Below are positions 16,601 to 63,399 of a stretch of DNA of 64,000 nt, piece by piece. The DNA is taken from positions 62,001 to 126,000 of the forward strand of contig WIUZ02000031.1 in NCBI GenBank assembly GCA_015956445.1, given 5' to 3'. Made by a program: the position numbers and the translations under genes. Source of the stretch: Thelephora terrestris. Its lineage: Eukaryota; Basidiomycota; Agaricomycetes; Thelephorales; Thelephoraceae. A model generated the notes under the pieces. That model did no database searches and was not told the origin of the DNA. It worked only from the letters and a program-made list of their open reading frames with translations. The stretch's first letter is position 1. The number at the start of each line of letters is the position of its first letter.

Positions 16601-16639
16601 ATATCCCACGCCTTTGCTACACTGAATGGGCCGGTAAAG

Positions 16640-17460: not shown

Positions 17461-20400
17461 CTATGGATGCCAGTCACAGAGACAATAAACTATAGATTCT
17501 TTCTGAGGATACAGATGACAGAAATCAAAAATCAAAACCTCTCCAGTTCTATAGCCAGCAACCAGATATTGCCCATCCCACTGTGCCACCCTAGGTTTTG
17601 CATACCTCCCAAACAGTTGGAAAACCACTTTTCCAGTGATTTTGTTTGTAATCCTAGGGGGATGATTGGTGAATTGCAGACAAGATTCCTCTATGGGTGT
17701 GTTGGGCAGTGGGGCTGGAGAGGAACCTGAGATTCCAAAGTCCCACCCTTGGATGGAAGAGCCACTGAGTTCAATCCAGATTTTTGAGCCATCCAAATAG
17801 AATAAATTTCCAAATGCCCACTCTTCCAACTCAACTTTGCCCATGCCCTCTCCTGTCCATATTGACCACACTTCAATGACAGTGCGATCACTCAGACAAA
17901 GAACCTTTGACCCATCCCCTGATATCCTGAGGCTGTTGCACTTTGGGACCTCTACTGTTTGGAGGAGTTCAGCTTTCTCAGTGTCCCAGATGTGAATCTT
18001 CCCACTCTCATGCCAAATCATGATTAGCTTCCCATCTGTCAGCTGGACATCTCTCAAGTTATAACCCACTGGGGTCTGGAAGGATGCTTTGCAGAGGCCA
18101 GTCAAGATATCCCAGGTCTTTACTACCCCATCATTGTCACTTGAGATAACAATCCCATTTCCTGGGTTCAGACTGATAGACTTGATTGGAGCTGAAGTAG
18201 GTGGAGTGGACTTTTGATCAGAGACAACTTGGTCTGTTTGTGGAACACCAATCTGCCAAAACCTGACTGATTTATCCAAAGATGCTGAGATCAGAGTGGA
18301 GGGAGAACAGAACACAATGCCCTGAATATAAGATGGTGTGGTGAATTGCTCAATGGGGTGAGAATCTTGGCTGGTAGTATTCCAGACATAGATGGTATTC
18401 TCAGTAGCAACTGCAACAAGCCTGCTGTCAGGAGAGAAATAGCATCTTTCAATGTCTCCACCAGCCACAGAGAATTCAGCTACAGTCACTCTAGTATCAG
18501 AGTGTTGGACTGTGACTGCATCTCCATTGCACAAAACAGATTGAACACCATCTGGGGAGAATGCGATGCAAGAACCATCATATGCTGGGCCAATTTGATG
18601 GCCGTTGATGTCCCACTGCCAGACCTTGTCATCAGATACAGATATGAGGTGTTGGGGGTTTGTTGGAGAGAAGGTGACATAGTCTATTCTCTGTGCTTGC
18701 TCAATGATACAGCTGTGTTCCCCTGTATGACAATTCCACAAGAAGATTGTTCCACCCTTATCCCCTGAGGCAATCATAGCAGAGTTTTTTGAGATGGAAA
18801 CAGACATGACATCGTCTTTGTGACCATCAAATGTCTTGATGACTCCACCAGTTTGCACATCCCAGAGTTTGACAGTCTTGTCCTCACTTCCAGAGACAAA
18901 AAACATCCCATCTGATGAGAAGGTGGAAGCTCTAACCCAATCAGTGTGACCAGAAAGGACAGCAGTTTGGCTGCCAGTAACTGCATCCAAGATAATGATA
19001 TCCCCAGAGTCCAGGCCAACTGCAACAGTGTTGTTCCAGTGTGAGATAGACTGTGGGTTGCTCCCAAGAGAAACAGTTCGAGAACATGTTCCCCACCAAA
19101 GTAGAGCTCCCCTGACCACCTTGACTACATTCAAGGATTCTGCACTGTAGCACTTTTGAAGCCATGATGAGGGAGGAGAAAATGGGAGGGCATAATGGTA
19201 TATCTCAGAAGGAGAGTTGTGGATGACATCAAAGTATTCCAACAGGAAGCGCTGGGTGTCATTTGTCCACTTGCACTCAATTCTTGCCTAAAAGACCATT
19301 GGTATGACTTTCAGTAGATGGTTTCAATAGCACTCACCAAAGCACACCATTGCTCAACATCATTCATGGCATAAACTCCAACACCAAGTTTTCCTGTAAG
19401 CACAAGGACTTCAATCCAATACAACAAGCTGGTTGTAGAGAATTCATCTATTGCCTCTGCTATTTCCTTGGCATGGGGGCTGCTTCCAGGGATCTCCAGA
19501 AGGTGCTTTGTCCAAAACTGGCAGGCATATTCCAGTGCATCTCCAATGTTATTGCTTTTTTGGGTGGAAAGGTTCTTCACCTCACTAAGAACAATATGGT
19601 CCTCAAGGTCACAGATGTTTCTCTTCAACCTTTCCTTCATTATCCTCAGGCATGACAGCAAAATCTCTGCATGATGAACCTTTGGCTCCACAAAAAACTT
19701 CTCATCCCTGCACCGGCTGGCATCTGTGAGAAAGTCGGGAAACGACTTGTGAAAGGCTTGAACTGGGTCTGCTTTTTTCTCTGGGTCTGCTGTCTTCTCT
19801 GTTTCTGGTACAAGGAGGAGGGAGTGGAGGGGGCGGAGGGTGGTAGGGATTTTGGACTTTGGGAGAAGGTCTGAAAGTGCTTTAACTGAGAGAGGGTTGA
19901 ACACCAGCACCACTGTTCCAATGACAGTCCTTAAACCAGAATAGAAATCCTCCTCACTTGGATCTATACCATGGGAGGCTTGATCCAGGACCTGGGAGTA
20001 GAGGACATCAACACCTAACTTTCCTTCCTGTGAAGTATTTTGTGGGAGGGAGATGATGAGGGAAAGCCTCTGAGTGGGAAGGTGTTTGGGGGATTCAACA
20101 AATTTGACAACTGTTGAGGCATAGATGAATAGGCCAGCAGCCTTCTCACAGAGGACATTGAGATCGTCTGGGCCTGGCCATTGCTCTGTCAAGTCACAGT
20201 CACTCCTTGCCCCAACAATCTTGGCCAGCTGAGTCCTGAGATATAGTTTGATATCTGCATCAACAGATGATCGCTCTACATCATGGAGCCTGAGCACTTC
20301 TGTGATAGGGCGGAGTGGTTTGAGACGGAACCCAGAGCGGATGGGGGGTTCAGGACGTCCGGTGATGAAAAATTTGACATTGGGGATTTCCTTGGTGTAG

Positions 20401-22175
20401 CGCGAGAGGATGGAAAGGATGGCAGATGCAGGTTCTTTGTCCTTGCACTCGTCAAGGGCGTCAATGATGATGAGGGTTGAGACAGTGGGGGAGGCTTTGA
20501 ATGGTCCGATGATGAGTTTCTCCATCTGGGAGCAGAGGGACTCCTGTCCAACATCTGGGATTGCTTTCAAGACCTCCAACAACTTCCCATGAAAAGAGGG
20601 ATACTTGTAGGCAAGCTGGAATGCAAGAGTTGGAAAGATTGTCTGAAGGTTACTCCGTTCCGCAAAATCCCGCGAGCAGAAGAAGCTTGCCCCAAGTTTT
20701 CCATCCGCAAAGCTTGTTTCAGCAAATGTTTGAGCGAGAGTGGACTTTCCGGTTCCGGCCAGGCCGTTCAGCCAGAACACACGTTTATCCTGCTTGTCTG
20801 TCAACCAGCGTTGAACCTCTCCAAGTACATCCTGCCTCGTTCCCCTCAGGCACCCCTGCCTGTTCCCGCTGCTGTAGCCAGCGCCCAAAGCATGATACAT
20901 CCCATTGAGAAGGGTGAGGTCCACAGATTCCTATTCAACAATCAACGTGTGAGGATCAGGAGCAGGGAAGCAGGCCTTACAATAAGCTGGCAACTCTTGT
21001 TGTAGAGACCTTGCTGTAATGAAGTCTGAAGCGAACGTCAGAGGTGCTGGGAAGTGCGAGTATTGCCAAAAACAAACCTGATATTGAATCATCGCATCAC
21101 GGATGTCCTCAACCAGTCCACGAATTTTATCGGTGTTCTCGACATTGCTGAAAAAACCTTCGACCTTTCCTTGCTCCATCAGTCCGTGTAGATCTTGATC
21201 AACGGCGTGCAATTTGCTAGGGATTCATACGTCAGAGTCGTTGCCTAATATCGAAGGGTATGGACTTACCCTTCCAGAACGCCTCTCCTCAATTGTTCAT
21301 CGGTATCACTCGGAGAAACAGGCGCGTAGACCAACTGAGCAACCTCCTGGACCCGGGGTGCCAACGATTCTATTGACTGTTGGTTTGCCTTCGTTCGCTG
21401 GTGCAACTCTAAGCGTTGGGGATCGCGAGTGCGGGAGAAGGACTGTACCTCGTAATTGTCCAATATAAAACAGAGACCTCCGGCGACAGACTTGAGTGGA
21501 CCGAATGCATCTGCGGACTCTCTGACCCCAAGGAGAATTGTCTTAGCTACGGAATACGCGAGGGACTTGAGCTTCCCGGTGTCCTTGTCAGTATCTACCG
21601 CACGCGATTCTTTAGAGGGATTCGGGGGTCCCATGTGTGCGCCTTGTTTTTCGGCGGAATCAGGCTGGGATGGAATGGAAGTGGGAGGGATATCTGGGTA
21701 GAGCGAAGAAATACGATTAAACGGATGTTCTGGGAAGCGAAAGGCCGCATACCGTTGGATTTCTGATCGTGAGAAGCCGAGGGCTCGATTGTTTGTAGAG
21801 TCGGGGCAACATTGTACGGATCTGGTGCTGGATCGACGAGACGTGGTGCGACCGTGGATTGTTTTTTGCTAGAATCAGGCTGGAATTGAGTAAAAGCGGA
21901 GGGGAAATCTGCGTCGCGCGAAAAAGTACGATTAGATGGATCTTTTTGTGACTAAATGGCTGCGTACCGTTGGGATACGGAGTGCGAGAGGCCGAGGGCC
22001 CAGGAGTCGGTTGGTTCGGGTCGCCGATGCGGAGATCTGGTGCTGGCTCCCCTGTGAAGCGCGGCGCGGCGGGTTCAACTTCGCTTGGCTCCCCGATGGG
22101 ACCCGTCTCGTTCCTTGCCCTGTTTCGTTCTCGATGACGGTCTTTTAATCGACGGAGACGATCTCGCAATCCCAT
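17461..22175 (-). CDS. NACHT-WD40 STAND protein (fungal NLR-like), apparently intact
   Basis: A signal-transducing NTPase of the class that in fungi serves non-self recognition and regulated cell death. Seven exons are inferred: 22175-21968, 21908-21753, 21693-21270, 21216-21078, 21013-20981, 20930-19338 and 19287-17461. All introns are GT-AG, 50-64 bp, and the sum is 1,459 codons plus stop with no break. The N-terminus is basic (MGLRDRLRRLKDRHRERNRA), then Pro-rich; residues of the type VRESADAFGPLKSVAGGLCF form the region common before NACHT in basidiomycete NLRs. The NACHT has Walker A GLAGTGKST (about 376-384) and Walker B LIIIDALDEC (473-482). From about residue 900 to the end there are ten or so WD40 blades (KLWDVQTG, KTWDILTG, HIWDTEK). 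Exons 2 and 3 look like a tandem duplication. Confidence 0.88.
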
Positions 22176-22929
22176 TTTTGTAGTGAGTTCGGTGTCGATG
22201 GTGGGCTGATAAGAGATAGATGACCTCGTGGCCTGATTCCGTTCTGGGGAACTGCTAGACGCTGGAAAATCTACGAGTTTCTTTCCGTCCAGAGGAGAAT
22301 TGGATCTCATGCCGGTTCAAACGACAACCTCCATTTCGCACTTCTCTCTCTCTCCGGGGGTGTGGAACGCCCAATACCGACAATTACAACCGATAGCCTG
22401 ACTCCAACAAATTCGTGCGATTGCTGGTGGTCCTCTGGTGCGGCCTTCGTGGACTCCGAGGTAGATGCTACCGCCACTTCTCACATCACCTTGGCTTCAG
22501 AAGTTCTCACCAACGCCAATAAATATGGCTCGTACTCGGATCGTACGTCGAAACTGCATCTGGCCCACGCCTGTGACCAGCCAGCCGGCGCGCAAGGTCT
22601 CAGAGTCGTCGAACTGCTGGGCATGAAGCTATCCCTCATCTCGTCCACGTCTTTATTCCACGTTATTATTTGTTCGCAGGGGACTCGAACGCGAGGACGC
22701 CCGAAAGCTCGACGAAAGCCTCCCTCTCTGCCAAATGCCAGAGGCCTGCCATCACCGAGGGCCATATGACCCCCACCGTCCGAACGAGCCAAGAGGCCCA
22801 TCTTTTCGTTCGTCACGTCTCCCTGTACCGGATCGAAGCCCGGGCCCTCTCAGGTCCTGAGGGTTTCTCTCCCCCTCTTCGCCCTCGCCAGCTGATGCGA
22901 ACGTCCCCGAGGTCGTAATGAGGGTACTC
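22176..22929. other. NLR1 upstream region, no gene assigned
   Basis: By comparison with 45662-46200, a GTPase copy should begin here on the plus strand, but I see no GTPase motifs, so that copy has been lost or has decayed beyond recognition. Short frames such as 22362-22769 (+) and 22816-22481 (-) have no recognised content. Confidence 0.35.
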
Positions 22930-30526: not shown

Positions 30527-33033
30527 ATGGCCAATTCTCAACATCAATCCGTCCCAGCTCACCGCATCGCTCCTCGTGTTGCGGACCAATTAAAAGCTAC
30601 ACGTCGGTCAGGATATGGAGGCTATCGCGACCACCACGCAAAGACTGTCGGAGAGGGCTCAGACGAATGGTTGGCAAAGGTTCGTCCGTTATCCGCCTGT
30701 CTATACCCACCCCACACTGAAAGTTGTTACGCCTAACGGATCGCCAGAGAGACTCTTTGCTGGGATCGACCATTCAAAACTGTTCGTTCCTGGTAGGTTC
30801 GAGAACAAAGACATCGTCTGGTTCCCCGAAGGTGGCCTAAACGCCTCCACACAACTGCGTCGACAGATGGGCTTATACCCACCCCGATAAGGTTCGCATT
30901 TCTGCCATAATATTGCCCATCGGTCGATCAGCGCTTCAGCTTCGGCGACCATGGCGTCGGCCAGTGCCGACAGTCTCAGCGTCCCAACCATAAAGTAGCT
31001 CTACACGATCCCCCCTCCCCTTCATTCCACAACATTCTGTCACAAACTCACAAATTTTAATAGACCGCTATCATCTACGAAGCTGATTAGCCGGGCGAAG
31101 GCTGCAAAATCACCTACCCTCAGCTTCTCCGCGAAGTTTGCATCGTGGCTAACGTCCTGAAGGCTATGGGAGTCAAGCAGGGCGACACCGTCTCCGTTTA
31201 CATGCCCATGACCTGGCACGCTGCTGCCACTTTCCTGGCCTGCGCTCGTATCGGCGCCATCCATTCCGTCGGCTTCGCTGGATTCTCCTCCGAGTCGCTT
31301 CGAGACCGCATCAAGGATTGCAAGTCCCGCGTTTTAATTACCTCCGATGAGGGCCGACGAGGTGGAAAGGTCATTGCCACCAAGGCCATCGTCGATGCCG
31401 CTCTCAAGGAGTGCCCCGAGGTTGAGCATGTTCTTGTTCATAGGAGGACCGGAAACACCGTTGCCTGGACTGAGGGACACGACAAGTGGTGGCACGAAGA
31501 GACCCTCAAGGTCCCGAACTACCGTCCACCGGAGGTCATGTCCTCTGGGGACCCGTTGTTCATTCTCTACGTGAGCATCGGAAGTTTATCTTCCGCCCAA
31601 CACCAGTCGCTGACGATGCTTCTTGACATTTCTTAGACCTCTGGATCCACCGGAAAGCCCAAGGTTGTCGTCCACACTACCGCCGGATACCTTCTCGGAG
31701 CCGCGCTGACCGACAAGTACGTCTTCGATGTCCACCCCGAAGACAAGTTTGCATGCATGGCCGATGTCGACTGGATCACCGGCCACACGTAAGTTTGGTA
31801 CTTTTGACAACCTCCGCCCCTGCTCTGGTCTTATACTTGATCAGGTACATCGTCTACGGACCTCTTCTCAAGGGCGTCACCACCGCTGTATTTGAGTCTA
31901 CCTCGGTCTACCCCACTCCATCCCGTTATTGGCAGGTCGTCGAGAAACACCAGATCACTCATTTCTACACCGCTCCCACCGCCATCCGTCTCCTCCGTCG
32001 TCTCGGCGAACACCACACCCAAGCCCACGACCTCAGCACGGTTTGAGTGCTGGGCAGTGTCGGTGAACCTATCAACCCCGAAGCTTGGGATTGGTACAAT
32101 GAGCACGTCGGAAAGAAGCAATGTGCCATTGTCGACACTTGGTGGCAAACCGAAACCGGATCGATCATGATAACGCCATTCCCTGGCGCCATCGAGACGA
32201 AACCGGGATCCGCTACAGTATCATTCTTCGGCATCGAGCCGGTCATCCTCGACCCAGTGTCTGGAGAAGTCCTCGAGGGCAACAGCGTCGAGGGTATCCT
32301 GTGTATCAGGAACCCCTGGCCGTCTATCGCGAGGACCGTCTGGAAGGATAATAACCGTTACCTTGATACCTATATGAGGGTTTGTGTTTATTTGCGCGGT
32401 GTGCAACGCTGTTTCTGATCCTGTCTTGTTTAGCCGTACCCAGGATTGTTCTATACCGGCGATGGTGCAGCCCGTGATGAGCATGGATACAATTGGATCA
32501 AGGGTTGCGTAGACGGTCAGTACCCCGAACGCCTATCGCTTCACCGAACGCGAGCCTAACCGAACCCAGATGTCATCAACGTCTCGGGTCACCCCTCTCC
32601 ACGGCCGAGATCGAGTCTGCTTTGATCCTTCACAGGGGTGCCGCTGAGACGGCCGTCATTGGTGTCTCCGACGATCTCGCCGGCCAAGCTGTCTACGCCT
32701 TTGTGACCCTCAAGCTGTATGTATTCCCTCGCCAACCTTGCAGACTCCAAGCTCATGGAACCTCCTTCCTTAGTGAATTCACCTACAACCCCAATGACGA
32801 GGGTTCCCTCGCTAAAGAGCTTATCCTTCAGGTCAGGAAGGTCATCGGGCCTTTTGCCGCGCCAAAGAAGATCATCATCATTCCCGACCTTCCCAAGACC
32901 CAATCTGACAAGATCATGCACCATATTATGCACAAATATCTGCTGGAGAGGGGATCAGTTGGGCGACCTCGGCACCTTGGCTGATCCAAGCGTTGTCGAT
33001 GCAACCAAGGCCACGGTCGCCGCCTCATCTTAG
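30527..33033 (+). pseudogene. acs: acetyl-CoA synthetase copy 2, broken
   Basis: The copy starts with an ATG (MANSQHQSVPAHRIAPRVAD) and keeps most of the enzyme: [92 protein letters not shown] and a C-terminal [18 protein letters not shown]. It lacks about 50 residues near the N-terminus. Breaks seen are a TAG at 31088, a TGA at 32044 (from CGA, a CpG site), a one-base loss near 32592 and a frameshift near 32945. The normal lysine motif TRSGK reads TQSDK. The last residues AASS and a TAG are kept. It converges on NLR2. Confidence 0.85.
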
Positions 33034-33059
33034 CTCTCTGGCACCTCTGCTACACTGAA

Positions 33060-33895
33060 TGGGCCGGTAAAGAGGGACATGTTTGGTGATTCTCATGGAG
33101 TGGGGGAGGTGGTTTGTACATTATAGGAGTTGAAGAGGAATATCTTGCGTCACCTGTCGTGTAGTCTTGAACCATTGCAACTTTTTCCTTATTGATAAAA
33201 TGTACTTTGGGTGATAAATCTCAATCTGTTGTATGCAGTGTCCAAGCGTGAACATGCGTGTTTCCTCTGGATGAAGGTGGGGTGGATGGGGCCCAAATTC
33301 CTCTGGAATGTGTTTACTGTACAAATGCCTCAATCTTCAGTCATGTTGCCATCAGTTTCCACCTTGCTGTGTGCGTTAGGGAAGAACCACCATTCTGAAT
33401 GACTGTCTGAAATTCACAACAAGAACTTTGATGGAGGGCACTATTCATGTTCCTACTGACATCTGCATCCACACCTCAGACACATTAATCTGTTTGGCCC
33501 AAAGATGAAGGTGAATAATTCCCCTTCCTTTTGAAGGGTGTCTTCAATGGGATGAGCCCAAAGTCCACAGGGTGTGTGTATCTGGTTAACTCTATTGAAC
33601 AACCAAGATCCTCGAGCCAGTTCCTGGGAGGGTCGCCGGGGGTGCCATAAGGGTTGATAGATATCAAGATACATATCATCAGCTTGTCAAGCTGGGGTGG
33701 AATGGAATGTAGTTGAGGGTGCCACATCTCAGCTATCTTACCCTTTGCCTGATGTGATAAATTTAGCTGGCTGTGATAAGACTAACCTTCTGTTTTATTT
33801 AGTCTTTTCCAGACTGAAAAAGATGATAATTAGACCATGTTGCATTTGCACCCCTTCCTATCTAAAACACATTCATACCAGAGAGGAAGACAAAG
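33060..33895. repeat. conserved ACS-NLR intergenic block, copy 2
   Basis: This is the same block as 16640-17460 and 63400-64000, with the ACS 3' flank on the left and the NLR 3' flank on the right. No gene is recognised. High similarity across all three copies shows that ACS and NLR were duplicated together. Confidence 0.55.
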
Positions 33896-36800
33896 CTAAA
33901 AACTGTAGTCGCAGAGACAATAAACAACAGATTCTTTCTGAGGATACAGATGACAGAAATCCAAGATCAAAACCTCTCCAGTTTCATAGCCAGCAACCAG
34001 ATATTGTCCATCCCACTGTGCCACCTTAGGTGCTGCATACCTCCCAAACAGTTGGAAAACCACTTTTCCAGTGATTTTGTTTGTAATCATAGGGGGATCA
34101 TTGGTGAATTGCAGACAAGATTCCTCTATGGGTGTGTTGGGCAGTGGGGCTGGGGAGGAGCCTGAGATTCCAAAGTCCCACCCTTGGATTAAAGAGTCAT
34201 GAAGTCCAATCCAGATTTTTGAGCCATCCAGATAGAAGAAATTTCCCCCTGACCATGTTTCTAACTCAACTTTGCCCATGCCCTCTCCTGTCCATATTGA
34301 CCACACTTCAATAACAGTGTCACAACTCAGACAAAGGACCTTTGACCCATCCCCTGATATCCTGAGGCTTTGACACCCTGGGACCTCTACTGTTTGGAGG
34401 AGTTCAGCTTTCTCAGTGTCCCAGATGTGAATCTTCCAACTCCCATGCCAAATCATGATTAGCTTCCCACCTGTCAGCTGGACATCTCTCAAGTTATTAC
34501 TAGCTGGGGTCTGGAAGGTTGCTTTGCAGAGGCCAGTCAAGATATCCCAGGTCTTTACTACCCCATCATTGTCACTTGAGATAACAATCCCATTCCCTGG
34601 GTTCACACTGATAGACTTGATTGAAGCTGAAGGAGGTGGAGTGGACTTTTGATCAGAGACAACTTGGTCTGTTTGTGGAACACCAATCTGCCAAAACCTG
34701 ACTGATCGATCCAAAGATGCTGAGATCAGAGTGGAGGGAGAACAGAACACAATGCCCCAAATATCAGATGGTATGGTGAATTGCTCAATGGGGTGAGAAT
34801 CTGGGCTGGTAGTATCCCAGACATAGATCATGTGTTCAGTAGCAACTGCAACAAGCCTGCCATCAGGGGAGAAACTGCATCTTTCAATGTCTCCACCAGC
34901 CACAGAGAATTCAGCTACAGTCACTCTAGTATCAGAGTGTTGGACTGTGACTGCATCTCCATTGCACAAAACAGATTGAACACCATCTGGGGAGAATGCG
35001 ATGCAAGAACCATCATATGCTGGGCCAATTTGATGGCCATTGATGTCCCACTGCCAGATCTTGCCTCCTGATACAGATATGAGGTGTTGGGGGTTTGTTG
35101 GAGAGAAGGTGACATAGTATATCCACTGTGCTTGCTTAATCACACAGGTGTGTTCCCCTGTCTGATGATTCCACAAGAAGATTGTTCCACTATAATCCCC
35201 TGAGGTAATCATAGCAGAGTTTGGTGAGATGGAAACAGACATGACATGATCTTTGTGACCATTAAATGTCTTGATGACTCCACCAGTTTGCACATCCCAG
35301 AGTTTGACGGTTGTGTCATCGCTTCCAGAGACAAAAAACATCCCATCTGATGAGAAGGTGGAAGCTCTAACATAATCAGTGTGACCAGAAAGGACAGCAG
35401 TTTGGCTGCCAGTAATTGCATCTAAGATGATGATAGCCCCGGAATCCATGCCAACTGCAACAGTGTTGTTCCAGTGTGAGATGGACCATGGGGGACTGCC
35501 AAGAGCAACAGTTCGAGAACATGTTCCCCACCCAAGTGGAACTCCCCTAACTTTGATTTCATTGGAGAGTTCTGCACTGTAGCACTTGGGAAGCCATGTT
35601 GAGGAAGGAGAAGATGGGAGGGCGAAATGGAATATCTGAGAAGGAGAGTCATGGATTATGTCAAAATTTTCCAACAGGAAGCGTTGGGTGTCATTTGTCC
35701 ACTTGCACACAACTCCCGCCTAGAAAATCATCAGTTTGAATCTCAGTTAATGGTTCAAATAACACTCACCAAAGCACACCATTGCTCAACATCATTCATG
35801 GCATAAACTCCAACATCAAGTTTTCCCATAATCACAAGGACCTCAATCCAATACAACAAGCTGGTTGTAGAGAATTCATCTATTGCCTCTGCTATTTCCT
35901 TGGCATGGGGGCTGCTTCCAGGGATCTCCAGAAGGTGTTTTGTCCAAAACTGGCAGGCATATTCCAGTGCATCTCCAATGTTATTGCTTTTTTGGGTGGA
36001 AAGGTTCTTCACCTCACTAAGAACAATATGGTCCTCAAGGTCACAGATGTTTCTCTTCTTCAACCTTTCCTTCATCAACCTCAGGCATGACAGCAAAATC
36101 TCTGCATGGTGGACCTTTGGCTCGACAAAAAACCTTTCATCTCTGCACCGGCTGGCATCTGTGAGGAAGTCAGGAAATGACTTGTGAAAGGCTTGAACTG
36201 GGTCTGCTGTCTTCTCTGGTTCTGGTACAAGGAGGAGGGAATGGAGGGAGCAGAGGGTGGTACGGATTTCAGGCATTTTGAGAAGGTCTGAAAGTGCCCT
36301 CACTGAGAGAGGGTTGAACACCAGCACCACTGTTCCAAGAACAGTTTTGAACTCAGAGTGGAATTTCTGATCATCTGGGTCAATACTGTGGAAGGCTTGC
36401 TCTAGGACTTTGGTGTAGAGGGGATCAACCCCTGACTTTGATTCATGGGTGGTGTTTTGTGGGAGGGAGGTGATGAGGGTGAGCCTCGCAGTGGGGGTGT
36501 AGCTTCGGCATGCAACAAATTTTATAACTGTGGAAGCATAGATGAAGAGACCAGCAGCCTTCTTGCAGAGAACATCAATTTCAGATGAAGTTGGCCATGG
36601 GTCTGTGAGGTTCCAGTCACTTCGTGTCTTGGCAACCTCGGCTAACTCGGTCCTGAAATACAGATTGATATCTGCATCAACAGATGACTGTTTAACCTCA
36701 TGCAGCTTGAGCACTTCTGTGATGGGGTGGAGTGACTTGAGACGGAACCCAGAGCGGATTCGAGGTTCAGGACGGCCGGTGATGAAGAATTTGACATTGG

Positions 36801-38285
36801 GTATTTGGTCTGTGTAGCGGGAAAGCATGGAAAGGATGGCAGAGGCAGGTTCTTCATCCTTGCACTCATCAAGAGCATCAATGATGATGAGGGTTGGGGT
36901 AGGGGAAGCTTTGAATGGGCCAATGATGAGTTTCTCCATCTGGGAGCAGAGGGACTCCCGTCCAACATCTGGGATTGCTTTCAAGACCTGCAACAACTTC
37001 CCACGGAAAGAGGGATACTTGTAGGCGAGCTGGAAGGCGAGAGTTGGAAAGATTGTCTGAAGGTTACTCCGGTCCACAAAATCCCGTGAGCAGAAGAAGC
37101 TCGCCCCAAGTTTTCCGTCCGCAAAGCTTGTTTCGGCAAATGTTTGAGCAAGAGTGGACTTTCCGGTTCCAGCCAGGCCGTTCAGCCAGAAAACATGTTT
37201 ATCCTGCTCATCCGTCAACCAGTGTTGAAATTCTCCAAGTACATCCTGCCTCGTTCCCCTCAGGCATCCCTGCCTGTTCCCACTGCTGTAGCCAGCATTT
37301 GAAGTGTGATACATCCCATTGAGAAGGATAAGGTCTACGGATTCCTATCCAACGATCAACGCGTGAGGATGAGGAGCAGGGAAGCAGGCCTTACAATAAG
37401 CTGGCAACTCTTGATGTAGAGATCTTGCTGTAATGAAGTCTGAAGCAAACGTCAGAGGTGCTGGGGAGTGTGAATATTCCCAAAACAAACCTGATATTGG
37501 ATCGTTGCATCGCGGATGTCCTCGACCAGTCCGCGAACCTTATCGGCGTTGTCAACATTGGCGAAAAAACCTTCAACCTTTCCCTGTTCCATCAGTTGGT
37601 GTAGATCTTGATCAACCTCTTGCAATTTGCTGGGGATTCATACGTCAGAGTCGGCACCTGATGTCGGAGGGTATGGACTTGCCGTTCCAAGACATCTCTC
37701 CTCGATTGTTCGTCGATATCTCCCTGAGAAACGGGCGCATAGAGCAACTTAGCAACTTCCTGGACCCGGGGTGCCAACGACTCTATGGATTGTTTGTTTG
37801 CCCTCATACGCTGGTGCAACTGTAAGTGCTGTGGATCGTGGGTGCGGGAGAAGGACTGTACCTCGTAATTGTCCAATATGAAACAGAGACCTCCGGCGAC
37901 GGACTTGAGTGGACCGAACGCATCTGCGGACTCTCTGACCGCAAGGAGGATTGTCTTGGCTACAGGATACGCGAGGGATTTGAACTTCCCAGTGTCCTTG
38001 TCAGCGTCTACCGCCGGCGATTCTGTTATGAGATCCGGGGGTCCCGTGTGTGCGCCTTGTTTTTCGATTGAATCAGGCTGGAATGGAATGGAAGTGGAGG
38101 GGGGATCTGGGTAGGACGAAGAAGTACGATTAGACGATTTTACTGGGAAGTAAATGGCCGCATACCGTTCGAGTTCTGATCGTGAGAGGCCGAGGGCTGG
38201 ACTGTTTGTAGAGTCGGGGCAACAATGTACAGATCTGGTGTCGGATCGGCGACACGTGGTGCGACCGTGCTTTCTTTTTCGCTGG

Positions 38286-38293
38286 AATCAGGC
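38286..38293. repeat. 8-bp target site duplication (left)
   Basis: AATCAGGC abuts the left terminal repeat and is repeated at 45363-45370. The NLR1 paralogue has a single AATCAGGC at the same place, so the empty-site sequence is known from inside the window. Confidence 0.92.
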
Positions 38294-38326
38294 AGGACCC
38301 CCGAAAATAAGGGGGGAGGTTCGCCG
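38294..38326 (+). repeat. left terminal inverted repeat, 33 bp
   Basis: It starts AGGACCCCCGAAAATAAGGG and ends GGTTCGCCG. All 33 bases match the reverse complement of 45330-45362, after which similarity stops. Confidence 0.93.
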
Positions 38327-39183
38327 ATCGTCCGAACAAATTCGGCGCGAGTTTTTTTGGTAGGTCTGTCCTGGTCCGAACAAATTTCCCACCTGCCCAG
38401 ACATATGTCTGGTCGGTGTCTGAACAAATATGGTGCGCCCCTGGTAGCTGCTGGGCCAAGCCGCCGCATAAGGTCATCACCGGTGGTACTTTATAGTTAT
38501 TCATATTTACTGAGGTAAAAAACTTAGATGGCGATGCACGTCCGTTTTCAACTGAATGCGATACTGCAGTTCACCAATTTACGATTCTGGGTCCTGCCCT
38601 GTCCCGATCCAGCAGAAAGTGAACAAGATCTGAATCGAGTTCAAGGGGTGAAGGCGGCGAAGGGGACCCCGATTTTCGATTTAATTATGCAACGAGATAA
38701 CATACATGTACAGAAAAAGGCTTTAGACTTGGTGGGTCGCACAACGTGGAAAGCGGTTGAGTGAAGGGTGTCGGGCGGCAGGGAGTTTAGGGGTGGAAGG
38801 CTCTGTATCTGCATTGCGAATGGAATTGGCGGTTTCCTGAATCAACGTTTATCGAAAGCTGTTCCGTCTGAAGGAAGGGCAACAATGGTAACAACAGCAA
38901 TGGAAAAGGGGGAGAGGCCTCGAACGAAGGTGCTGTGTTGTTGCGCCTGAGCTGATTAAGGTATGGAGCGGAGGAGTTGAACATCGTTGAGCACGACCAG
39001 AGACAGTAAATTGAGCGAAGCATTGTGACGGCTCACCGTTCGAGAGAGTTAAGATGATACTGGGGTTGATCCCAGCCTTTCAGGTTGTGACTCGGATAGG
39101 CGGAGGTGATGTGTTGGTAGCCAAAATTTTCAGCGATCGTTCCACACCGACACCGTTGAGAGCAGAAAACACCAGAAGCCTAG
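38327..39183. other. transposon 5' region with subterminal repeats
   Basis: GTCCGAACA occurs at 38330-38338 and 38374-38382, with a one-base variant GTCTGAACA at 38418-38426. A TAGGTCTGTCC motif occurs near 38361. The rest is the likely promoter and leader of the transposase gene. A 78-codon plus-strand frame at 38528-38764 is open but has no recognised content and probably is not a gene. Confidence 0.55.
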
Positions 39184-42100
39184 ATGGATACCGAACGCCT
39201 TTCACAGCTTCCAGTTGACTCTTGCGGCCAGCCTATGCTCGAGATGGTCAGGGTCAGGGCCAACCGAGAAAAAAAAATCCCAAAGAATTATGAACGACTC
39301 GTACCTTCTGAAGACATATCGATCTCCTCACTCCTCGGCGCGCCTCTTCCAGTCATCCTCTCCCCTGTAAGCACCCTCCGACCAGCAGCCTCTTGTGTGG
39401 TTTCCAAGCAACCCAACTCGACCAGCGACAAGCTCTTGGCCATGCAAGTGCCATCGAAGGAGTGGTTGAAGGCATTGGACGGCGCGATTACGGATGGATG
39501 GCTGGGAGGCGCGCGTTCCGTCGAACACCCTCGTGATGCATCGGTCCGATTCCCTCTGTGGGTTGGAGCGTTCTGGACCCTGTTATCCGAAGTTTTACAG
39601 CAACGGGAGGAGTGGCGCCGTGCTCAAGAATGGATGCTCACCGTTACCCAGGGCGCCGAAACCCATGAAGTCCAGGCGCTATTCAACAAGATCTCATGGA
39701 AGAGGTACATCTGGATACTCCCAGTGGAGGCTGACCAAACTGTGACGAAGCTGAGCTTCTTCGCCCAGCTGCTCTCTGACGGGTTCCTTGCGGAACGCCA
39801 TATCAATGCTTTTGTGTCGTACCTCAACATCCATGCACGCAAGCGAGCACCAAAGGCGCCCGGAGTTTTCGTTGCGAGCCTACCGCTATCGGTTGTCTTA
39901 TCAAGCCACTTCAATGCGTCTGCATGGAAGATTCAGGAGTGTAAACTCCTCCTCCAGTACACAGCGATCTTCAAAAGTCGAGCTTACCATCGCCTTTTGT
40001 TCCCTGCGCACGTTGGCGGTGCACAGAACGGTCATTGGGTTGTGTTTGATGTCGACTTTAAAAATTCTGGGTATTGCTTTGGTGAGTCGGATAGGGCACA
40101 TAAGTACTTTATTCACTCACCCGTCCTCATGCTGGTACAGGAAACTCTTTACATAACTCATCTTACGAAAAGGACATCACAAAGATCTGTCGTGGGCTAG
40201 ACAATTGGACGTCGACTCTTTTTAACCACCGATTTAAAAACAACGGTCAGGCTCTACCGATTGGAGTCCAGCAGGACGGGATTTCGTGCGGGATATGTGC
40301 CCTGAATGCTCTTGAACATGCGCTCTTCGGCGTCCCCCTTTTCGTCCACGAACGCCGCAATGTCCTGCGAGTTCAGTACTTTGCCTACATTGCAAAGGCG
40401 CTACATGATCATGTAAGCACAAATTGCGGCCTTCGTTGGACACAAACAACTAACCTTTAACACAGGCATCAGCGCCAAGGCATCATAACACCATTGAAGA
40501 CCTTGTGGAGTACCACTCGATTCGAAAATCGTGGGACCTCAAGCACAATGTTCTTGATGAGGTCATAGTTGGCGAACGAGAACTGGAGGGTGAGGCGAGG
40601 AGTGTCGGAGAACCCGTAGTGGTAGAAGTTGAAGGAGAGGTAAACAAGGTGGATGTGGACGACATGGATGAGGTAGATGAACTGGACAAAGTGGAGGTGG
40701 TAGAAGCAGGGAAAGTGGAGGATGTGGACGATGACACATCAACCTGGTCAACGGATCCTGGATTGCTGCCACCCCCTTCAGACGCGAGTGTGGAATGCAA
40801 TGACACAAGCGATGACGAGGTGGAGGGATGGCCGACCCTAAAACGAAAGGCGTCGAGCGATTTGACGAAGTCGCAATGGAAGGTTGCAAGAAAAGAAGAG
40901 ATTGTGTCAGAGCTGGACGATGGAAGCGAGGGAGAAACTGACGATGATGACAACAAGCGGAGCCGGTCGGCGATCGCAAGTAGGAAGCTGAGGGAATCGG
41001 TCAAGTCCAGGAGCTTCGTTGTTGATGAGAGGAAGAGGAAGCGGTTTGAAGAAAAATGCATCGAGATGGACCACGGGGCCAAATTCAGTTACAAGGACAC
41101 CAGCTGGCAAGTCCTCCACTCCAAGTGCTTGAAGTGGTTTCGAATGACGGAACCATACAACACGACACGGTTTAAGGCGCATGTTGGGACTTGCAAGGTG
41201 AAAGGGACGGAATGCAACACATCCATTACGAACTTTTTCAAACCGAGGGACCCTGGTGACGTCAACACGGAAGCAAAACCGAGGATTACAGTGCGGAAGC
41301 AAATTTTCGTTGGTGACAAACTTTCAACTTCGATGACTCAGACGATCAAGCCCCGTCTCCCTGACAATCGGTTGGTTTCCCGAGCCCAGCCTTGTCTTGG
41401 AATTTCCGATGCTCAAGATCGCCGTGTCTCTGCATACATTGCTCGCACTGTCGTCGAGGGCGGTGGGTCTATCTCCCTCCAGAGGGCCACCCAGGAGGTG
41501 TATGGTGATGACGTCAAGTACTCTGAGCTGGCTGATGACGAAAAGGAAGAGGTCGCAGTTGCCCAATCCCACCGCAGATCGTGGTCTATCAACAGGGAGC
41601 GCAGGGTTGTATTTTCCACCAACTGCGCAAAATTCATCCCGCAAAATCAGCGGCCCAAAAAGAAGATCTGTGCTAATTGTGAAACGGTTGCCAGGTCAGA
41701 CGCATTCAAACGAGCGTTACGTGTCAAACCGCCTCCACTGGAAACGATGAAGTACATCCCCATCAAGTTTCGAACTGCCATGGCGGATCTGGGGGCCAAG
41801 TTTGCGAATGTAAAAGGTCTCTCTGATTTACTGCACGAGGTGTGTTTTGATATGTTAGCTAAACCATCACTAATAACAATTGACGCATATCAGGATCCTC
41901 AGACCTCGATGTGGGTACGGTTTGTTCGCGGCGTTGTGAAAGGCGAATACAAAGACAAGCTCGTCTTCCTGGCAATGATACAAGCAACAGTCGTGGCCCG
42001 TGACCGGGATTCTCGGGGGGTTGGACTCCAGAACATGCAATATCAACCGATATATGAGGAGTTCACTCAGATGATGGCATTAACCAGTCCACAAACATAT

Positions 42101-45088
42101 CGCCTCCTTGCGCCACATATCCAGCTCCCTTCCCTTCGTCATCACCAGTAAGCTTCAACGTTCTCGGCTCATTCGCTCCCTAACGCATTCGATAGGATAG
42201 TCCGGTCTCGTTTACCCCCTTTCCCGAGATTTATTTCCAACGACTGTTTCCTCCTCGCACAAAGCTACATCACATCTCTGAATTATTCTGGGCCAGTGGC
42301 GTTAGCTTGTGACGATACAAAACTCCATCCGTCGCTTCAAGTTGTCTGGGAGAATTCCCTGAACTCAAACGTCCTCATAGGTTCAACGACTAATGAGCCG
42401 ATCCTCGTTGCCGACCCCGAAGAATTGGAGGCACTCCTTGTTAAATTGGAAGGCAAGATAGCAACAAAGGTACGTGTCACATCAACAAAGCATTGGACAC
42501 ACGCCTGACCCTACTGCACAGCTCAGGTTGTGGTGCATTCAGGTCCCATTGATCGGCATTCTGACCATGATCGTTGCAGCAGAAGCGATCCCCGACAACC
42601 TAACTGCTGACAAGCTGCACGCAAAATCGAGGGACGTAATCATCGGCCTCAAACGCCACGGTGTCAATATCGCCTCGTACGCTTCCGATGGTACCCAGGT
42701 CGAGCGCTCTGCCCAAGACCTCCTTGTCATGCACGCAACCGGACACCTTTTATACACAGTTCCTGACCCCGAGGATGACCATAAACATGAGATTCGAATT
42801 CCAATCTACTGCCGCACCCCGGTCGTGATGATTCAAGACTCAAAACATGCGGCGAAAACCCTGAGAAACAACCTTTTCTCAGGTGCTCGTGCCCTTGTCC
42901 TTGGGAATCACCTTGCAATGTATTCGTACGTACGGGATATGGCATTTGGTGGTCTCCCCGGCTGTCCTCTATATCACCGGGACGTAGAAAAGGTGGATAG
43001 GCAGGATGACAATGCCGCTACAAGACTCTTTTCAGCACCAGCCTTGGATTTCGTGGCGAAACAGTTCCCCGACCGTCTCGGACTGGTCGTATATTTGTTC
43101 GTTATGGGGGAGGTTGTCGACGCCTTCCAGAGTCGCACGATTTCCCACCTTGAACGGATACAGATGCTTCTCCGATGCCGGTACTTCCTTCGACTGTGGA
43201 AACGTTTCCTTGGTGCCGCGGGATATACAGAACAAAGGCACTATATCTCCCGCGAGGCTGACGATATCATCGACACTCTCGTTGACGGTTTACTCGGGCT
43301 CATTTACGTCTACCGCGATCATTTTGTCGACCAACGCTACCCCCTCATTCCCTGGTTACATTCTAGCGAGATGTGCGAACACGTCTTCGCAGAGTGCCGG
43401 AAGCTAGTCAAGGACTTCACGTACCTAAACTTCCTACATATGGTCCCCAGGTTGCGAGTCCTAATACGGGCGGCATCGTTGTTCTCGAAGGGTACAGACC
43501 CTAAGGCTCGGGCCATGGGATATTCCCACTCATACCTCCACTCTGAAAACGCTCGCACCGAGTCGCTCGCAATATACCCCACCGATGGTGATATTGCACT
43601 TGCAGTGGGTGCAGCGTGGGACGAAGCTGTTACCCTTTTTGGGTTGCTCGGAATCGAAGTTGACGACATCACCCCTTCCCCTGCCACCAGCCCTGCAGAC
43701 TCGCCCTCTCCAGCCCCGAACCCTGATGAAGATGGACTGGACCTGACAGATCACCCTCACGAGGAGACCGAGGCCGCAGCCCTCCAACGCATGATCGGTC
43801 TCCAGCAGACACCCGGTTGGAAGTCGGTCGACTCCGAGATCCAAGACCAAATGCACGTACTGACGTGTGCAGCAATCGCCTTGGATATTGAAGAGAGAAG
43901 GTCGTTGTAAGTGCATTGCTCTATTTGGAGCTGATTCAACGCTCACCGAACCTTGCCTTTGTTAGAGTTGAGCTGTGTGAAGATAGCAACCCTGGGGAAT
44001 CAGACAGCCAAACCCTCCACGACGCTGCAACCGTCCTGGACACGTTAACTGCCCTCAAATCATCTGTGCGGGAGAAAACGGGAGCTGCGAACGACCCCGA
44101 GAACACGCCTTCCCTCCTGCCAACAACTGCCCAATCAAACCTCTCACCACTGGTCGCAATTCGCAGGGTTCACCAAACAAAACGAGCCGCGAGCAGTGTC
44201 AAGACACGCACGAACCCGCAAGACAGTGCTTCAACCCAGACTATGGAACGGACAGACCGCCAGAGGTTGTGCGCCCAAATGGCAGAACTCATCCAGCGCG
44301 CAGGCAGTGGCCTAGAACGGGATGCGCGATGGAAGTCCGGGACTGCACCCGGAACGAGAACCACTGCAGAGGTGCAAGATCTTACAGGGAATTCGGCCAA
44401 TGCTGAGGTTTCGGCACGGGAACGAGTGAACGCGGTGAGTCGTTACCCCTACCCACACAGTACTAAGGGGCCTTTCATCTCACATTGGCTCATAATAGGC
44501 CAAAGCAACACGCGCACAACATTTCAATGCGGGTGGAATAAACCTTTCACGATACCTGGCAGATGGATTGGTTGGCGATGGCACCAGTTCGGGAAAGCCA
44601 CCTCGTCTCCCGGTGCGAGTCGGGACTTGGGCACTCGTCTACTACAACAAGAAGATCTACGCCGCGAACGGTATGATATCGTTTAACTGTAGGAGTACAG
44701 CGACAGAATACTAACACCTCTGCTAGTGTTTGCATGTTACTCTAAAGAGGCCGGGTCTGGGAGCCGACACGCCTGGCAGGCATCCTCATCCGCAATCACA
44801 GCCTTGTCCTACCTTGTGGTTCAAGCGTTCGAGGGAACGACCGCTGTGCGAAACCGCTTCCGTTCCATTCACCGCAGCAAGGCCAACATCAGAGCCAAGA
44901 CATTCCTACACATTCCCTCGTCGCAATTCCTCTGCCGCTTCCAAGAAGAGGTAAATTTCGTTGATTCGCAGACAATCCAAGTGGACGACAAAGACTGGAC
45001 TACATTTCAGAAGCTGTCCAAATGCTCAGAGGCCCTAGGGGATGTTATAAAGAAGCTGAATGGCGCTACGAGAGGAGGAAAAAAGTGA
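39184..45088 (+). CDS. Ulp1-like protease / RNase-H-like transposase fusion, 1,819 aa
   Basis: Nine exons are inferred: 39184-40081, 40141-40412, 40466-41839, 41894-42147, 42196-42469, 42522-43906, 43966-44434, 44499-44670 and 44727-45088. All introns are GT-AG of 48-64 bp and the sum is 5,460 bases with no stop. Residues about 90-400 form a C48 (Ulp1-like) cysteine protease: His284 in NGHWVVFD, Asn301 in the Asp/Asn place, Gln343 and Cys349 in VQQDGISCG. Then come an acidic tract (about 430-500), a possible zinc finger (C611, H629, C633) and NTSITNFF near 641-648, like a PCNA-binding box. The catalytic core has ACDDTKLHPSL (D972), SYASDGTQ (D1080), LFVMGEVVDAFQSR and SSEMCEHVFAECR (E1310). 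The third intron is in frame, so it could be retained. The function is inferred as cut-and-paste transposition in the nucleus. Confidence 0.85.
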
Positions 45089-45329
45089 ACGCGAGAGGCA
45101 CATGCAGGTTTCTTCAGACTCTGACCTTTACTCGCCCGATTTTCTGTGTTTCGTTTGTGTAGGCCTGACAGTCGTATGTACAAATCGAATGTATAGGAGG
45201 CTTTCAGAAAATCGACAATCTTTTCTTCTGTCCGAACATTTTTCGGGCCTTTCAAAATAGGTCTGTCCGTGTCCGAACATATTCCGCCGATCCTATATTT
45301 TCGCGTCCGAACATTTCGCCGGATCTGCC
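45089..45329. other. transposon 3' region with subterminal repeats
   Basis: GTCCGAACA occurs at 45230-45238, 45271-45279 and 45305-45313, in the same orientation as at the left end. TAGGTCTGTCC occurs near 45258. No coding sequence is seen. These repeats are candidate transposase-binding sites. Confidence 0.6.
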
Positions 45330-45362
45330 CGGCGAACCTCCCCCCTTATTTTCGGGGGTCCT
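45330..45362 (-). repeat. right terminal inverted repeat, 33 bp
   Basis: This is the exact reverse complement of 38294-38326. Confidence 0.93.
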
Positions 45363-45370
45363 AATCAGGC
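45363..45370. repeat. 8-bp target site duplication (right)
   Basis: AATCAGGC, the partner of 38286-38293. Host NLR exon 2 resumes immediately after it. Confidence 0.92.
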
Positions 45371-45661
45371 TGAGATTGAGTAAAAGTGGAGGGAAAATCT
45401 GCGTCGCGCGGAAAGCACGGTTAGACGGATCTGCTGGGAGTTAAATGGCTTCGTACCGTTGGAATCTTGAATGCGAGCGGCCGAGGGCCCAGGAGTCGGT
45501 TGGTTCGGGTCACCGATGCGGAGATTTGGTGCCGACCCTGTGGGGCGCGGCGCGACGGGTTCAACTTCGCTTGGCTCCCCGATGGAACCTGTCTCGTTCC
45601 TTGCCCTGCTTCGTTCTCGATGACGGTCTTTTAATTGACGGAAAAACTTTCGCACTGCCAT

Positions 45662-46200
45662 GTTGTCGTGAGTTCGGTGTCGATGGTGGGCTGATAAGAG
45701 ATAGATGGCCTCGTGGCCTGATTCCGTTCTGGGAAACTGCTAGACGCTGTGAAATATTCAAGTTTCTTTCGTCCAGAGGAGACTTGGCTCCGAGTCCGGA
45801 TGTGATAGACACTGCTCGTCTCAGCGTCTTTCGAATCAACGAACTTCTCAAGTCCGCCGCCGAGTTCGGACAAGCCACCAGGCCAACTTCAGGGCATTCG
45901 AAGGACTCTCCGTACGTCTGCTCCCGGAGAACGTATGTCCTGCTCAAGGGTCCTGGGTTATGCCCGGTCTATTCACTCTGTTGCTATTATCTTGATCGAC
46001 TAAATACTGACTCGACGACATATTTTGGGGAGCTTCTACCAACCGGATGCTGGAGGTTTTTTTTGACACGCGTCTTTAGGTCAGGAGGGTTGCGGGGTTC
46101 GTAACCGAAGATCTGGCGAGTTTCCTCTTTTCGTGCTGCCCACGGATGACGTGTTCCTTAAACCTACGCGAACTTCACAGGCAAATCGAACACACTCCCT
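45662..46200. other. NLR2-GTPase head-to-head intergenic region
   Basis: This would hold both promoters, since NLR2 starts at 45661 on the minus strand and the GTPase copy runs on the plus strand from about 46200. The frame at 45445-46104 (+) is mostly the antisense of NLR exon 1 and its leader and is not taken as a gene. Confidence 0.4.
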
Positions 46201-61029: not shown

Positions 61030-63340
61030 GCTGATTCTCAACATCAATTTACCCAACTCCCCTCGTGTTAAATACCAATGGAAAGCCCGTTCAAGACCAT
61101 TCGTTCTGGTAGCTTCGAGAATGGAGACATCGCCTGGTTCCCCGAAGGTGGTCTCAACGCCTCATACAACTGCGTCGACCGATGGGCTTATACCCTCCCC
61201 GAGAAGGTTCGCATTTCTGCCATCATCTTGCCCATCGACAGTCGATCGGCGATTCAGCTTCAGCGACCATTGGCGTCGGCCAGCGCCGACAGTCTCAGCG
61301 TCCCGAACCATACAGTCGCTCTACACGATTCCCCCTCCCCTTCATTCCACAACATTCTGTCACGAACTCACAGATTTCAATAGACCGCAATCATCTACGA
61401 AGCCGATGAGCCGGGCGAAGGCTGCGAAATCACCCACGCTCAGCTTCTCCGCGGAGTTTGCAGCATGGCTAACGGCTCGAAGGCTATGGGAATCAAGCAG
61501 GGCGACGCCGTCTCCGTTTAAATGCTCATGACCTGGCACGCTGTTGCCACTTTCCTGGCCTGCGCTCGCATCGGCGCCATCCATTCCCTCGTCTTCGCTG
61601 GTGTCTCCTTCGAGTCGCTTCGAGACTGCATCAAGGATTGCAAGTCTCGCGTTTCGATCACCTCCGATGAGGGCCAACGGGGTGGAAGGGGCATTGCTAC
61701 CAAGGCTATCGTCGATGCCGCTCTTAAGGAGTGCCCCGAGGTTGAGCATGTACTTGTCCAGAGGAGGTCCGGAAACACCGTGGCCTGGACCGAGGGACGC
61801 GACAAGTGGTGGCACGAAGAGACCCTCAAGGTCCCAAACTACTGTCCACCGGAGGTCATGTCCTCTGAGGACCCGTTGTGCATTCTTTACGTGAGCATCG
61901 GAAGTTTATCTTCCGTCCAACAACAGTTGCTGACGGTGCTTCTCGACATTTTTAGACCTCTGGATCCACCGGAAAGCCAAAGGGTGTCGTCCACACTACC
62001 GCCGGATACCTTCTCGGAGCCGCGCTGACCGTCAAGTATGTCTTCGATGTCCACCCCGAGGACAAGTTCGCATGCATGGCCGATGTCGGCTGGATCACCG
62101 ACCACACGTAAGTTTGGTGCCTTTGCCAACCGCCGCCTCTGGTCTTATATTTGATCAGGTACATTGTCTACGGACCTCTTCTCAACGACGTCACCACCAC
62201 TGTATTCAAGTCCACCCCGGTCTACCCCACTCCATCCCGTTATTGGCAGGTCGTTGAGAAACACCAGATCACCCATTTCTATACCGCTCCCACCGCCATC
62301 CGTCTCCTCCGTCTTCTCGGCGAACACCACACCCAAGCCCACGACCTCAGCACGGTTCGAGTGCTGGGTAGCGTCGGTGAAGCTATCAACCCCGAAGCTT
62401 GGGACTGGTACGATGAGCACGTCGGAAAGAAGCAATGTGCCATTGTCGGCATTTGGTGGCAAACCGAAACCGGATCGATCATGATAACGCCATTCCCTGG
62501 TGCCATTGAGATGAAACCGGGATCTGCTACTGTACCTTTCTTCGGCATCGAGCCGGTCATCCTCGACCCAGTGTCCGGAGAAGTCCCCGAGGGCAACAGC
62601 GTCGAGGGTATCCTGTGTATCAGGAACCCCTATCCGAGGACGGTCTGGAAGGATAATCACCATTACCTCGATACCTACATGAGGGTTTGCGTTCATTTGT
62701 GTTTTGTGGGACCTTGTTTCTGATCTCGTCTTGTTTAGCCATACCCAGGATTTTTCTATACCGGCGATGGTGCGGCCCGCGATGAGCACGGATACATTTA
62801 GATCAAGGGCCGCGTAGACGGTCAGTACCCCGAACGTCCTCGCTTCACCGAGCGCGAGCCTAACCGAACCCAGATGTCATTAACGTCTCGGGACACCGCC
62901 TCTCCACTGCCGAGATTGAGTCTGCGTTGATCCTCCACAGGGGTGTCGCTGAGACGGCCGTCATCGGCATCTCCGATGATCTCACTGGCCAAACCGTCTA
63001 TGCTTTTGTGACCCTCAAGCCGTACGTATTCCCTTGCAAACCTTGCAGACTTTGAGCTCATTGTACCCCCTTTCTTAGTGAATTCACCTACAACCCCAGT
63101 GATGAGGGCGCCCTCGCTAAGGAGCTTATTCTTCAGGTCAGGAAGGTCATTGGGCTGTTCGCCGCACCAAAGAAGATCATCAATGTTCCCGACCTTCCCA
63201 AGACCCGATCTGGCAAGATCATGCACCGCATCTTGTGCAAGATTTCCGCAGGAGAGGGTGACCAGCTGGGCAACCTCAGCACCTTGGCTGATCCCAGCGT
63301 TGTCGATGCCATCAAGGCTAAGGTTTTCACCTCGTCTTAG
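61030..63340 (+). pseudogene. acs: acetyl-CoA synthetase copy 4, broken but well kept
   Basis: The N-terminus is decayed, then the copy follows the enzyme closely: [40 protein letters not shown], a long intron to 61383, [30 protein letters not shown]-like loop, [37 protein letters not shown] and [15 protein letters not shown]. Breaks are a TAA at 61519 and a TAG at 62799 (the Trp of YIWIKGR); a 9-base in-frame loss removes part of [10 protein letters not shown]. The start codon is unclear. It ends at a TAG at 63338 and should converge on an NLR outside the window. Confidence 0.85.
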
Positions 63341-63399
63341 ATCTCCCACGCCTTTGCTACACTGAATGGGCCAGTAAAAAGGAGTGTGTTTGGTGATTC

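Follow-up and report, generated by a model that had tools for sequence, protein, structure and literature searches.

A 7,069-bp segment (positions 38294-45362) of a 64,000-nucleotide stretch of contig WIUZ02000031.1—referred to here, at its full length, as the window—is a real, young and autonomous-looking DNA transposon, bounded by perfect terminal inverted repeats (TIRs) and an 8-bp target-site duplication and carrying one long open gene. In our preferred reading, to which we give a probability of about 0.6, it is an autonomous class II cut-and-paste element, recently inserted into what is presumably a mushroom genome, whose product would be a single chain holding both a Ulp1-like protease and a divergent P-like transposase. 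The ends of the element, the candidate binding sites just inside them and a paralogous empty site in the same window are as follows.

38294-45362: transposon, 7,069 bp
38286-38293 (strand not applicable): left copy of the target-site duplication AATCAGGC, 8 bp
38294-38326 (plus strand): left TIR, 33 bp, holding a small hairpin, CCCCC-8-GGGGG
38330-38429 (plus strand): left subterminal direct repeats, three copies of GTCYGAACAWWT starting at 38330, 38374 and 38418
45230-45316 (plus strand): right subterminal direct repeats, three copies of GTCYGAACAWWT starting at 45230, 45271 and 45305
45330-45362 (minus strand): right TIR, 33 bp
45363-45370 (strand not applicable): right copy of AATCAGGC, 8 bp
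21288-22306 (plus strand): paralogous empty site, with a single AATCAGGC at junction 21873

The two TIR arms are complementary at 33 of 33 positions, and AATCAGGC is identical at both flanks. When the flanks were joined and compared with the window using BLAST, they aligned with 21288-22306 at 86.5% identity over 1,019 columns; this copy runs continuously through the junction and holds only one AATCAGGC, which establishes that the 8-bp duplication is real. Because the paralog is uninterrupted, the element arrived after the segment had been duplicated, unless the paralog has cleanly lost a copy of its own. An earlier note on this DNA had called the element young, and the perfect ends, the duplication, the open gene and the empty paralogous site together bear out a young cut-and-paste transposon. 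Within the window, the 18-bp tip of the TIR was not found, at up to three mismatches, anywhere beyond the two element ends, and GC content does not differ between the element (0.519) and the window (0.518). Each TIR also contains a short palindrome of its own (CCCCC-8-GGGGG), which is predicted to fold.

Repeat finding picked up related words inside both ends. Exact copies of the 12-mer GTCYGAACAWWT number six in 64 kb, always on the plus strand and three just inside each end, against 0.08 occurrences expected—a contrast that is indicative, as the pattern was defined after the repeats had been seen. When two mismatches were allowed, there was no enrichment across the window (16 found, 17.2 expected). 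These copies are candidate transposase-binding sites; all six point the same way although the TIRs are inverted, so that the element ends lack mirror symmetry. P elements, too, have internal transposase sites near their ends, according to an excerpt of PMC7776569.

The gene was modelled by eye from the sequence, using GT-AG introns of 48-64 bp. As predicted, it occupies 39184-45088 on the plus strand, with nine exons and eight introns, and encodes 1,819 residues with no stop codon but the final one; a further in-frame intron (44951-45010) is possible in exon 9, in which case there would be ten exons and 1,799 residues. The element has two stretches free of stops, of 565 and 482 codons, that are longer than any found in 300 dinucleotide shuffles, in which the longest stretch averaged 180 codons and never exceeded 432. 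What the earlier note had read directly from the letters—perfect 33-bp TIRs, an 8-bp duplication and an open nine-exon gene—was thus recovered in full (33/33 positions, AATCAGGC twice, 1,819 residues free of internal stops), and the motifs that it quoted are present as SYASDGT (residues 1076-1082), VDAFQSR (1223-1229) and CEHVF (1309-1313). The exons, all on the plus strand, are listed here with the features that they are predicted to encode.

39184-40081 (plus strand): exon 1, residues 1-299, the N-terminus and first part of the Ulp1-like domain (H284)
40141-40412 (plus strand): exon 2, residues 300-390, second part of the Ulp1-like domain (N305, Q343, C349)
40466-41839 (plus strand): exon 3, residues 391-848, an acidic linker and a possible zinc finger, H608-x2-C611-x17-H629-x3-C633
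41894-42147 (plus strand): exon 4, residues 849 to about 932
42196-42469 (plus strand): exon 5, to residue 1024, with the first proposed catalytic acid, D972 (ALACDDTKL)
42522-43906 (plus strand): exon 6, residues 1025 to about 1485, with D1080, D1130xxH1133, insertion-domain-like blocks and E1310
43966-44434 (plus strand): exon 7
44499-44670 (plus strand): exon 8
44727-45088 (plus strand): exon 9, containing the stop codon and the possible further intron at 44951-45010

The N-terminal domain is very probably Ulp1/C48-like, because it combines a sub-threshold Pfam match with His, Gln and Cys residues in the right order. Residues 161-400 matched Peptidase_C48 (PF02902) with an E-value of 0.0052 and 17.1 bits, where the curated cutoff is 20.7, and the whole protein matched the same model at E 0.11. 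Among sequences of solved structures, searched at E up to 10, there were only two matches, both from one Ulp1-type protease (E 1.4 and 2); in the alignment, GHW covers the histidine and QQDGISCG covers the Gln-Cys motif. H284, Q343 and C349 therefore align with the C48 catalytic set, and at the Asp position of that His-Asp-Gln-Cys set the protein has N305 (or N301) instead. To this extent the earlier claim of a Ulp1-like protease on the transposase chain is supported, and the domain is likely to be proteolytically active. Counting against a single chain with a working protease are the Pfam score under the cutoff, the replacement of Asp by Asn and the joining of exons across introns predicted by eye, all of which would suit a different explanation: that the Ulp1-like part is no active SUMO protease but a decayed or repurposed domain, or that the gene model has misjoined two genes. 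We think this unlikely, given that the His, Gln and Cys residues are retained in order, that no stop interrupts the frame and the intron boundaries and phases agree with it, and that related cysteine proteases tolerate Asn where Asp is expected.

The case for a P-like transposase begins with the order of the proposed catalytic residues. The core offers D972 in ALACDDTKL, D1080 in SYASDGT, D1130 and H1133 in IQDSKHAAKTLRNN and E1310 in SSEMCEHVF, which gives the signature D, D, [C/D](2)H, E in the same order as in P-element transposase. Patterns resembling D-D-[C/D](2)H-E also occur in other superfamilies. The signature D, D, D(2)H, E falls at residues 230, 303, 339 and 531 of the fly protein in an excerpt of PMC8230255; the resulting spacings are 108/50/180 in our core, 73/36/192 in the fly and 70/40/199 in THAP9 (reference spacings from the residue numbers in that excerpt). 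Blocks chosen by eye are collinear between the core and fly P, including ALACDDTKL with VLAFDEMKV, QDSKHAAKTLRNN with SDTPHLIKLVRNH and NAATRLFS with KLATQLFS. Without gaps, identities to fly P are 4/10 in the beta1 block, 5/17 in the D(2)H region, 6/16 and 4/16 in two insertion-domain blocks and 4/17 in the E1310 block (score 17), with a score of 12 for the D1080 block; as these six blocks were picked by eye, their scores carry no probability.

Residues 941-1360 of the core were aligned locally with fly P residues 214-569 under four gap settings, each with 1,000 shuffles. The observed scores were reached by 10, 11, 7 and 2 of the 1,000 shuffles (10, 17, 2 and 4 in a repeat run), with Z-scores of 2.6-3.6. 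Under the same four settings, piggyBac gave 249, 385, 339 and 382 (Z 0.2-0.6) and the housefly hAT transposase Hermes 1, 123, 47 and 31. Fly P itself, when set against Hermes, gave 9, 399, 417 and 453 (Z 0.05-0.14 at the three long-gap settings) and, against piggyBac, 461, 281, 167 and 122. Judged by the counts for the three long-gap settings, it lies nearer to P in the case of the core than hAT does in the case of P: core and P are closer than P and hAT. Decoys were cut as 28 overlapping segments, 19 of them out of seven other open reading frames (ORFs) of the window and nine out of the N-terminal part of the element's own protein; in the two gap settings tried, not one reached the score of the core against P, with a thin margin of 50 to 48 at gaps 11/1. 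A P-like core is plausible from these comparisons, being more likely than any single alternative; membership of the P superfamily is not proven.

Several results weigh against P membership. The core had no match to any Pfam model, including PF21787, PF21788 and PF21789, at a limit of E 10 (the filters of the tool remove most matches above about E 0.1), whereas fly P transposase in the same scan matched all three and PF12017, and Pfam scans of the protein found no THAP domain. A single-sequence hhalign comparison of core and P was not significant, its value of 0.059 falling at a non-corresponding place and being bettered by 2 of 40 shuffles. In an earlier alignment test, whose bounds were wider, 12 of 300 shuffles did at least as well as the real sequence. 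At gaps 11/1, P with its score of 50 (10 of 1,000 shuffles) fell behind Hermes with 58 (1 of 1,000), and the top-scoring P alignment there differs from the catalytic one. The Hermes match at gaps 11/1 is local, around the second Asp, with a Z-score of 4.9. In blocks placed by hand, two of eight GTP ligands of the fly enzyme named in an excerpt of PMC7776569 (K385, K400, V401, S409, F443, D444, N447 and D528) have identical counterparts, namely S409 in S1195 and D444 in D1224; D528 is conservatively replaced by E1307, K400, V401, F443 and N447 differ and K385 is unaligned. Finally, an AlphaFold2 model of the exon 6 stretch alone (358 residues) reached a predicted local distance difference test score (pLDDT) of 36 and did not model the catalytic fold, which in P transposases is an RNase H fold with its insertion domain between beta5 and alpha4.

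The earlier note's claim of a P/THAP9-like core has therefore fared unevenly: the order of the acids and of the D(2)H motif stood, and so did an alignment to fly P mostly above shuffles and decoys, which leaves P as the best-supported affinity, while the Pfam, hhalign, GTP, THAP and Hermes results went the other way. In the Pfam scans no P, KDZ, hAT or MULE model matched the core, and no strong match to a named family was found.

Some of the adverse results would fit a cut-and-paste element whose DDE core lies outside all known superfamilies, P included, and whose P-like motifs are general features of RNase-H transposases that have an insertion domain and a [C/D](2)H motif. The lack of a Pfam match, the higher Hermes score near the second Asp at one gap setting, the changes in most GTP ligands and the D-to-D spacing of 108 in place of 73 all speak for it. 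We nevertheless consider it improbable, because the three whole-domain gap settings favour P (2-17 of 1,000 shuffles) over Hermes (31-123) and piggyBac (339-385), and because the P blocks are collinear, albeit chosen by eye. A divergent hAT or KDZ (Kyakuja-Dileera-Zisupton) element with a captured Ulp1 domain is more doubtful still: the local Hermes match and a finger that could have BED-like spacing would suit it, but no KDZ, CxC or hAT model in Pfam, the hAT dimerisation domain included, matches the protein, and neither the hAT RW motif nor the KDZ signature words were seen on reading the sequence. Both groups as a rule give 8-bp duplications, and KDZ groups occur in mushrooms (excerpt of PMC12730594); against this, Cryptococcus KDZ elements carry TIRs of 139-241 bp and a CxC1 domain (excerpt of PMC12810828).

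Set beside known systems, the element resembles the P-element superfamily (Drosophila P, THAP9, zebrafish Pdre2) in its 8-bp duplication, its short TIRs (33 bp here, 31 bp in P; excerpt of PMC7776569), its binding-site-like repeats near the ends, its D-D-D(2)H-E order and its collinear insertion-domain blocks. It differs in having no THAP domain that we could find, mostly changed GTP ligands, an added Ulp1-like protease, a length of 7 kb with nine exons and a presumed fungal host, and pairwise similarity is weak. The very probable Ulp1-type protease is shared with MULE transposons of melon, Arabidopsis, rice, maize, hydra and lancelet and, on one chain with a DDE transposase, with Ginger1, where an OTU protease may take its place (excerpt of PMC2836005). 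Our protein has no MULE transposase match in Pfam, and Ginger1, according to the same excerpt, pairs an integrase-type core with a C-terminal protease, unlike the N-terminal protease found here without an integrase match in Pfam. Oomycete Cryptons carry a Ulp1-related C48 peptidase, but their recombinase is of the tyrosine type, for which we have no match, and CryptonS encodes the peptidase as an extra protein (excerpt of PMC3212892). Fungal KDZ elements share the 8-bp duplication and basidiomycete hosts, but here the TIRs are short and there is no KDZ/CxC or TET/JBP match in Pfam; hAT (Hermes) shares the duplication and local similarity around the second Asp, but there is no hAT match in Pfam and the long-gap alignments are reached by 31-123 of 1,000 shuffles.

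We know of no earlier link between a P-like core and Ulp1. Mushroom genomes may often encode unnamed hypothetical proteins whose core motifs resemble these; if they truly do, the family would be widespread but unnamed. Among the papers listed by literature searches that covered mainly journals outside subscription, none describes a Ulp1-carrying DDE transposon that is P-like or fungal. The main text of the fungal paper nearest in topic, on TET/JBP-carrying KDZ and other transposons (PMC12730594), contains no mention of Ulp1 or protease, and excerpts of PMC10799480, PMC6416283, PMC10045372, PMC10779208 and PMC8146201 describe no fusion of Ulp1 with a transposase. In excerpts of the last two, the accessory chromosomes of Colletotrichum and Parastagonospora are reported to carry Ulp1 genes, partly as tandem copies, that are not joined there to a transposase; these genes might derive from Ulp1-carrying transposons.

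Searches for relatives of the core returned nothing firm. In viral contigs one stretch fitted the pattern and none was confirmed; motif patterns gave 0, 21, 2, 0 and 0 stretches in viral contigs and at least 118 in genome contigs, with no relative established. The whole protein, compared by tblastn with 141 loci, matched nothing at E up to 1, and seven matches with the first 21 loci at E up to 10 had a best E-value of 1.0. No relative of the core was found in plasmids, and fly P protein had no match in viral contigs and phages.

In the mechanism that we propose, the N-terminal half of the 1,819-residue protein, perhaps by way of the H-x2-C...H-x3-C finger, would bind both the TIRs and the six subterminal repeats, and the protein would pair the element ends through these sites. 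An RNase-H-type DDE core (D972, D1080 and E1310), with the motif order and insertion-domain blocks of P elements and THAP9, would then cut the ends, which would be joined to target cuts staggered by 8 bp. The Ulp1-like cysteine protease would probably act at the insertion complex, stripping SUMO or a related modifier from the transposase itself or from chromatin or repair proteins of the host. This role is proposed by analogy with Ulp1-carrying MULE and Ginger1 transposons, for which a part of the domain in transposition has been suggested (excerpt of PMC2836005), and C48 peptidases are also known from oomycete Cryptons (excerpt of PMC3212892).

We put forward more tentatively, at somewhat under even odds, that the element belongs to a separate P-like branch in fungi, or to a sister superfamily, lacking both THAP domain and GTP site, with its own deSUMOylating protease on the transposase chain and with direct rather than inverted subterminal sites at both ends. 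If so, the link between a P-like core and Ulp1 offers a test of why unrelated transposons repeatedly acquire SUMO proteases: another unrelated core with Ulp1, besides MULE, Ginger1 and Crypton, would suggest that SUMO-type cleavage is a recurrent need of transposition, an idea made testable by an intact-looking young copy with clean ends and candidate binding sites. The GTP cofactor has been described as unique to P (excerpt of PMC7776569), and a P-like core here would mean that the superfamily has a fungal branch that may not need GTP.

Elsewhere in the protein, the possible zinc finger is located upstream of the core, on a reading of the sequence; AlphaFold2 gave its 77-residue stretch a weak model (pLDDT 58), with a best PDB match at E 8.0. 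Further Pfam matches fell below their cutoffs and were taken as chance: NACHT_N in exon 7 (E 0.041), Zn_ribbon_15 in exon 3 (E 0.31), CBM_6 in exon 1 (E 0.28, or 0.25 in the protease segment) and DUF4447 in the protease segment (E 0.22). Two PHROGs matches (E 0.28 and 0.29) were rejected.

The target of the insertion was the 5' part of a NACHT-WD40 (NLR-like) gene, now divided between 33899-38293 and 45363-45760 on the minus strand, whose downstream ORFs match NPHP3_N/NACHT and WD40. A similar 5' region is uninterrupted in the paralog at 20900-22300 (the paralog has MGLRDRLRRLKDRHRERNRARNETG... where the DNA next to the element has MAVRKFFRQLKDRHRERSRARNETG...); the copy that took up the insertion may therefore be disabled or altered. 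Large repeats (14478-21884, 30907-38297, 61222-64000 and others), the longest at 83-90% identity, are an array of duplicated genes of predicted NLR-like type. The insertion junction is present in two copies in the window, one of them with the transposon, and in both AATCAGGC belongs to a short repeat that recurs 215 bp apart (38071 and 38286; 21658 and 21873), looking like repeated small exons and introns of the host gene.

Two ORFs on the minus strand nearer the start of the window (4019-5446 and 11025-12863) have PIF1-like helicase and DUF6570 matches, an association found in Helitron-type elements, and close to them lie direct repeats, 2-1038 and 8241-9276, that are 93% identical.

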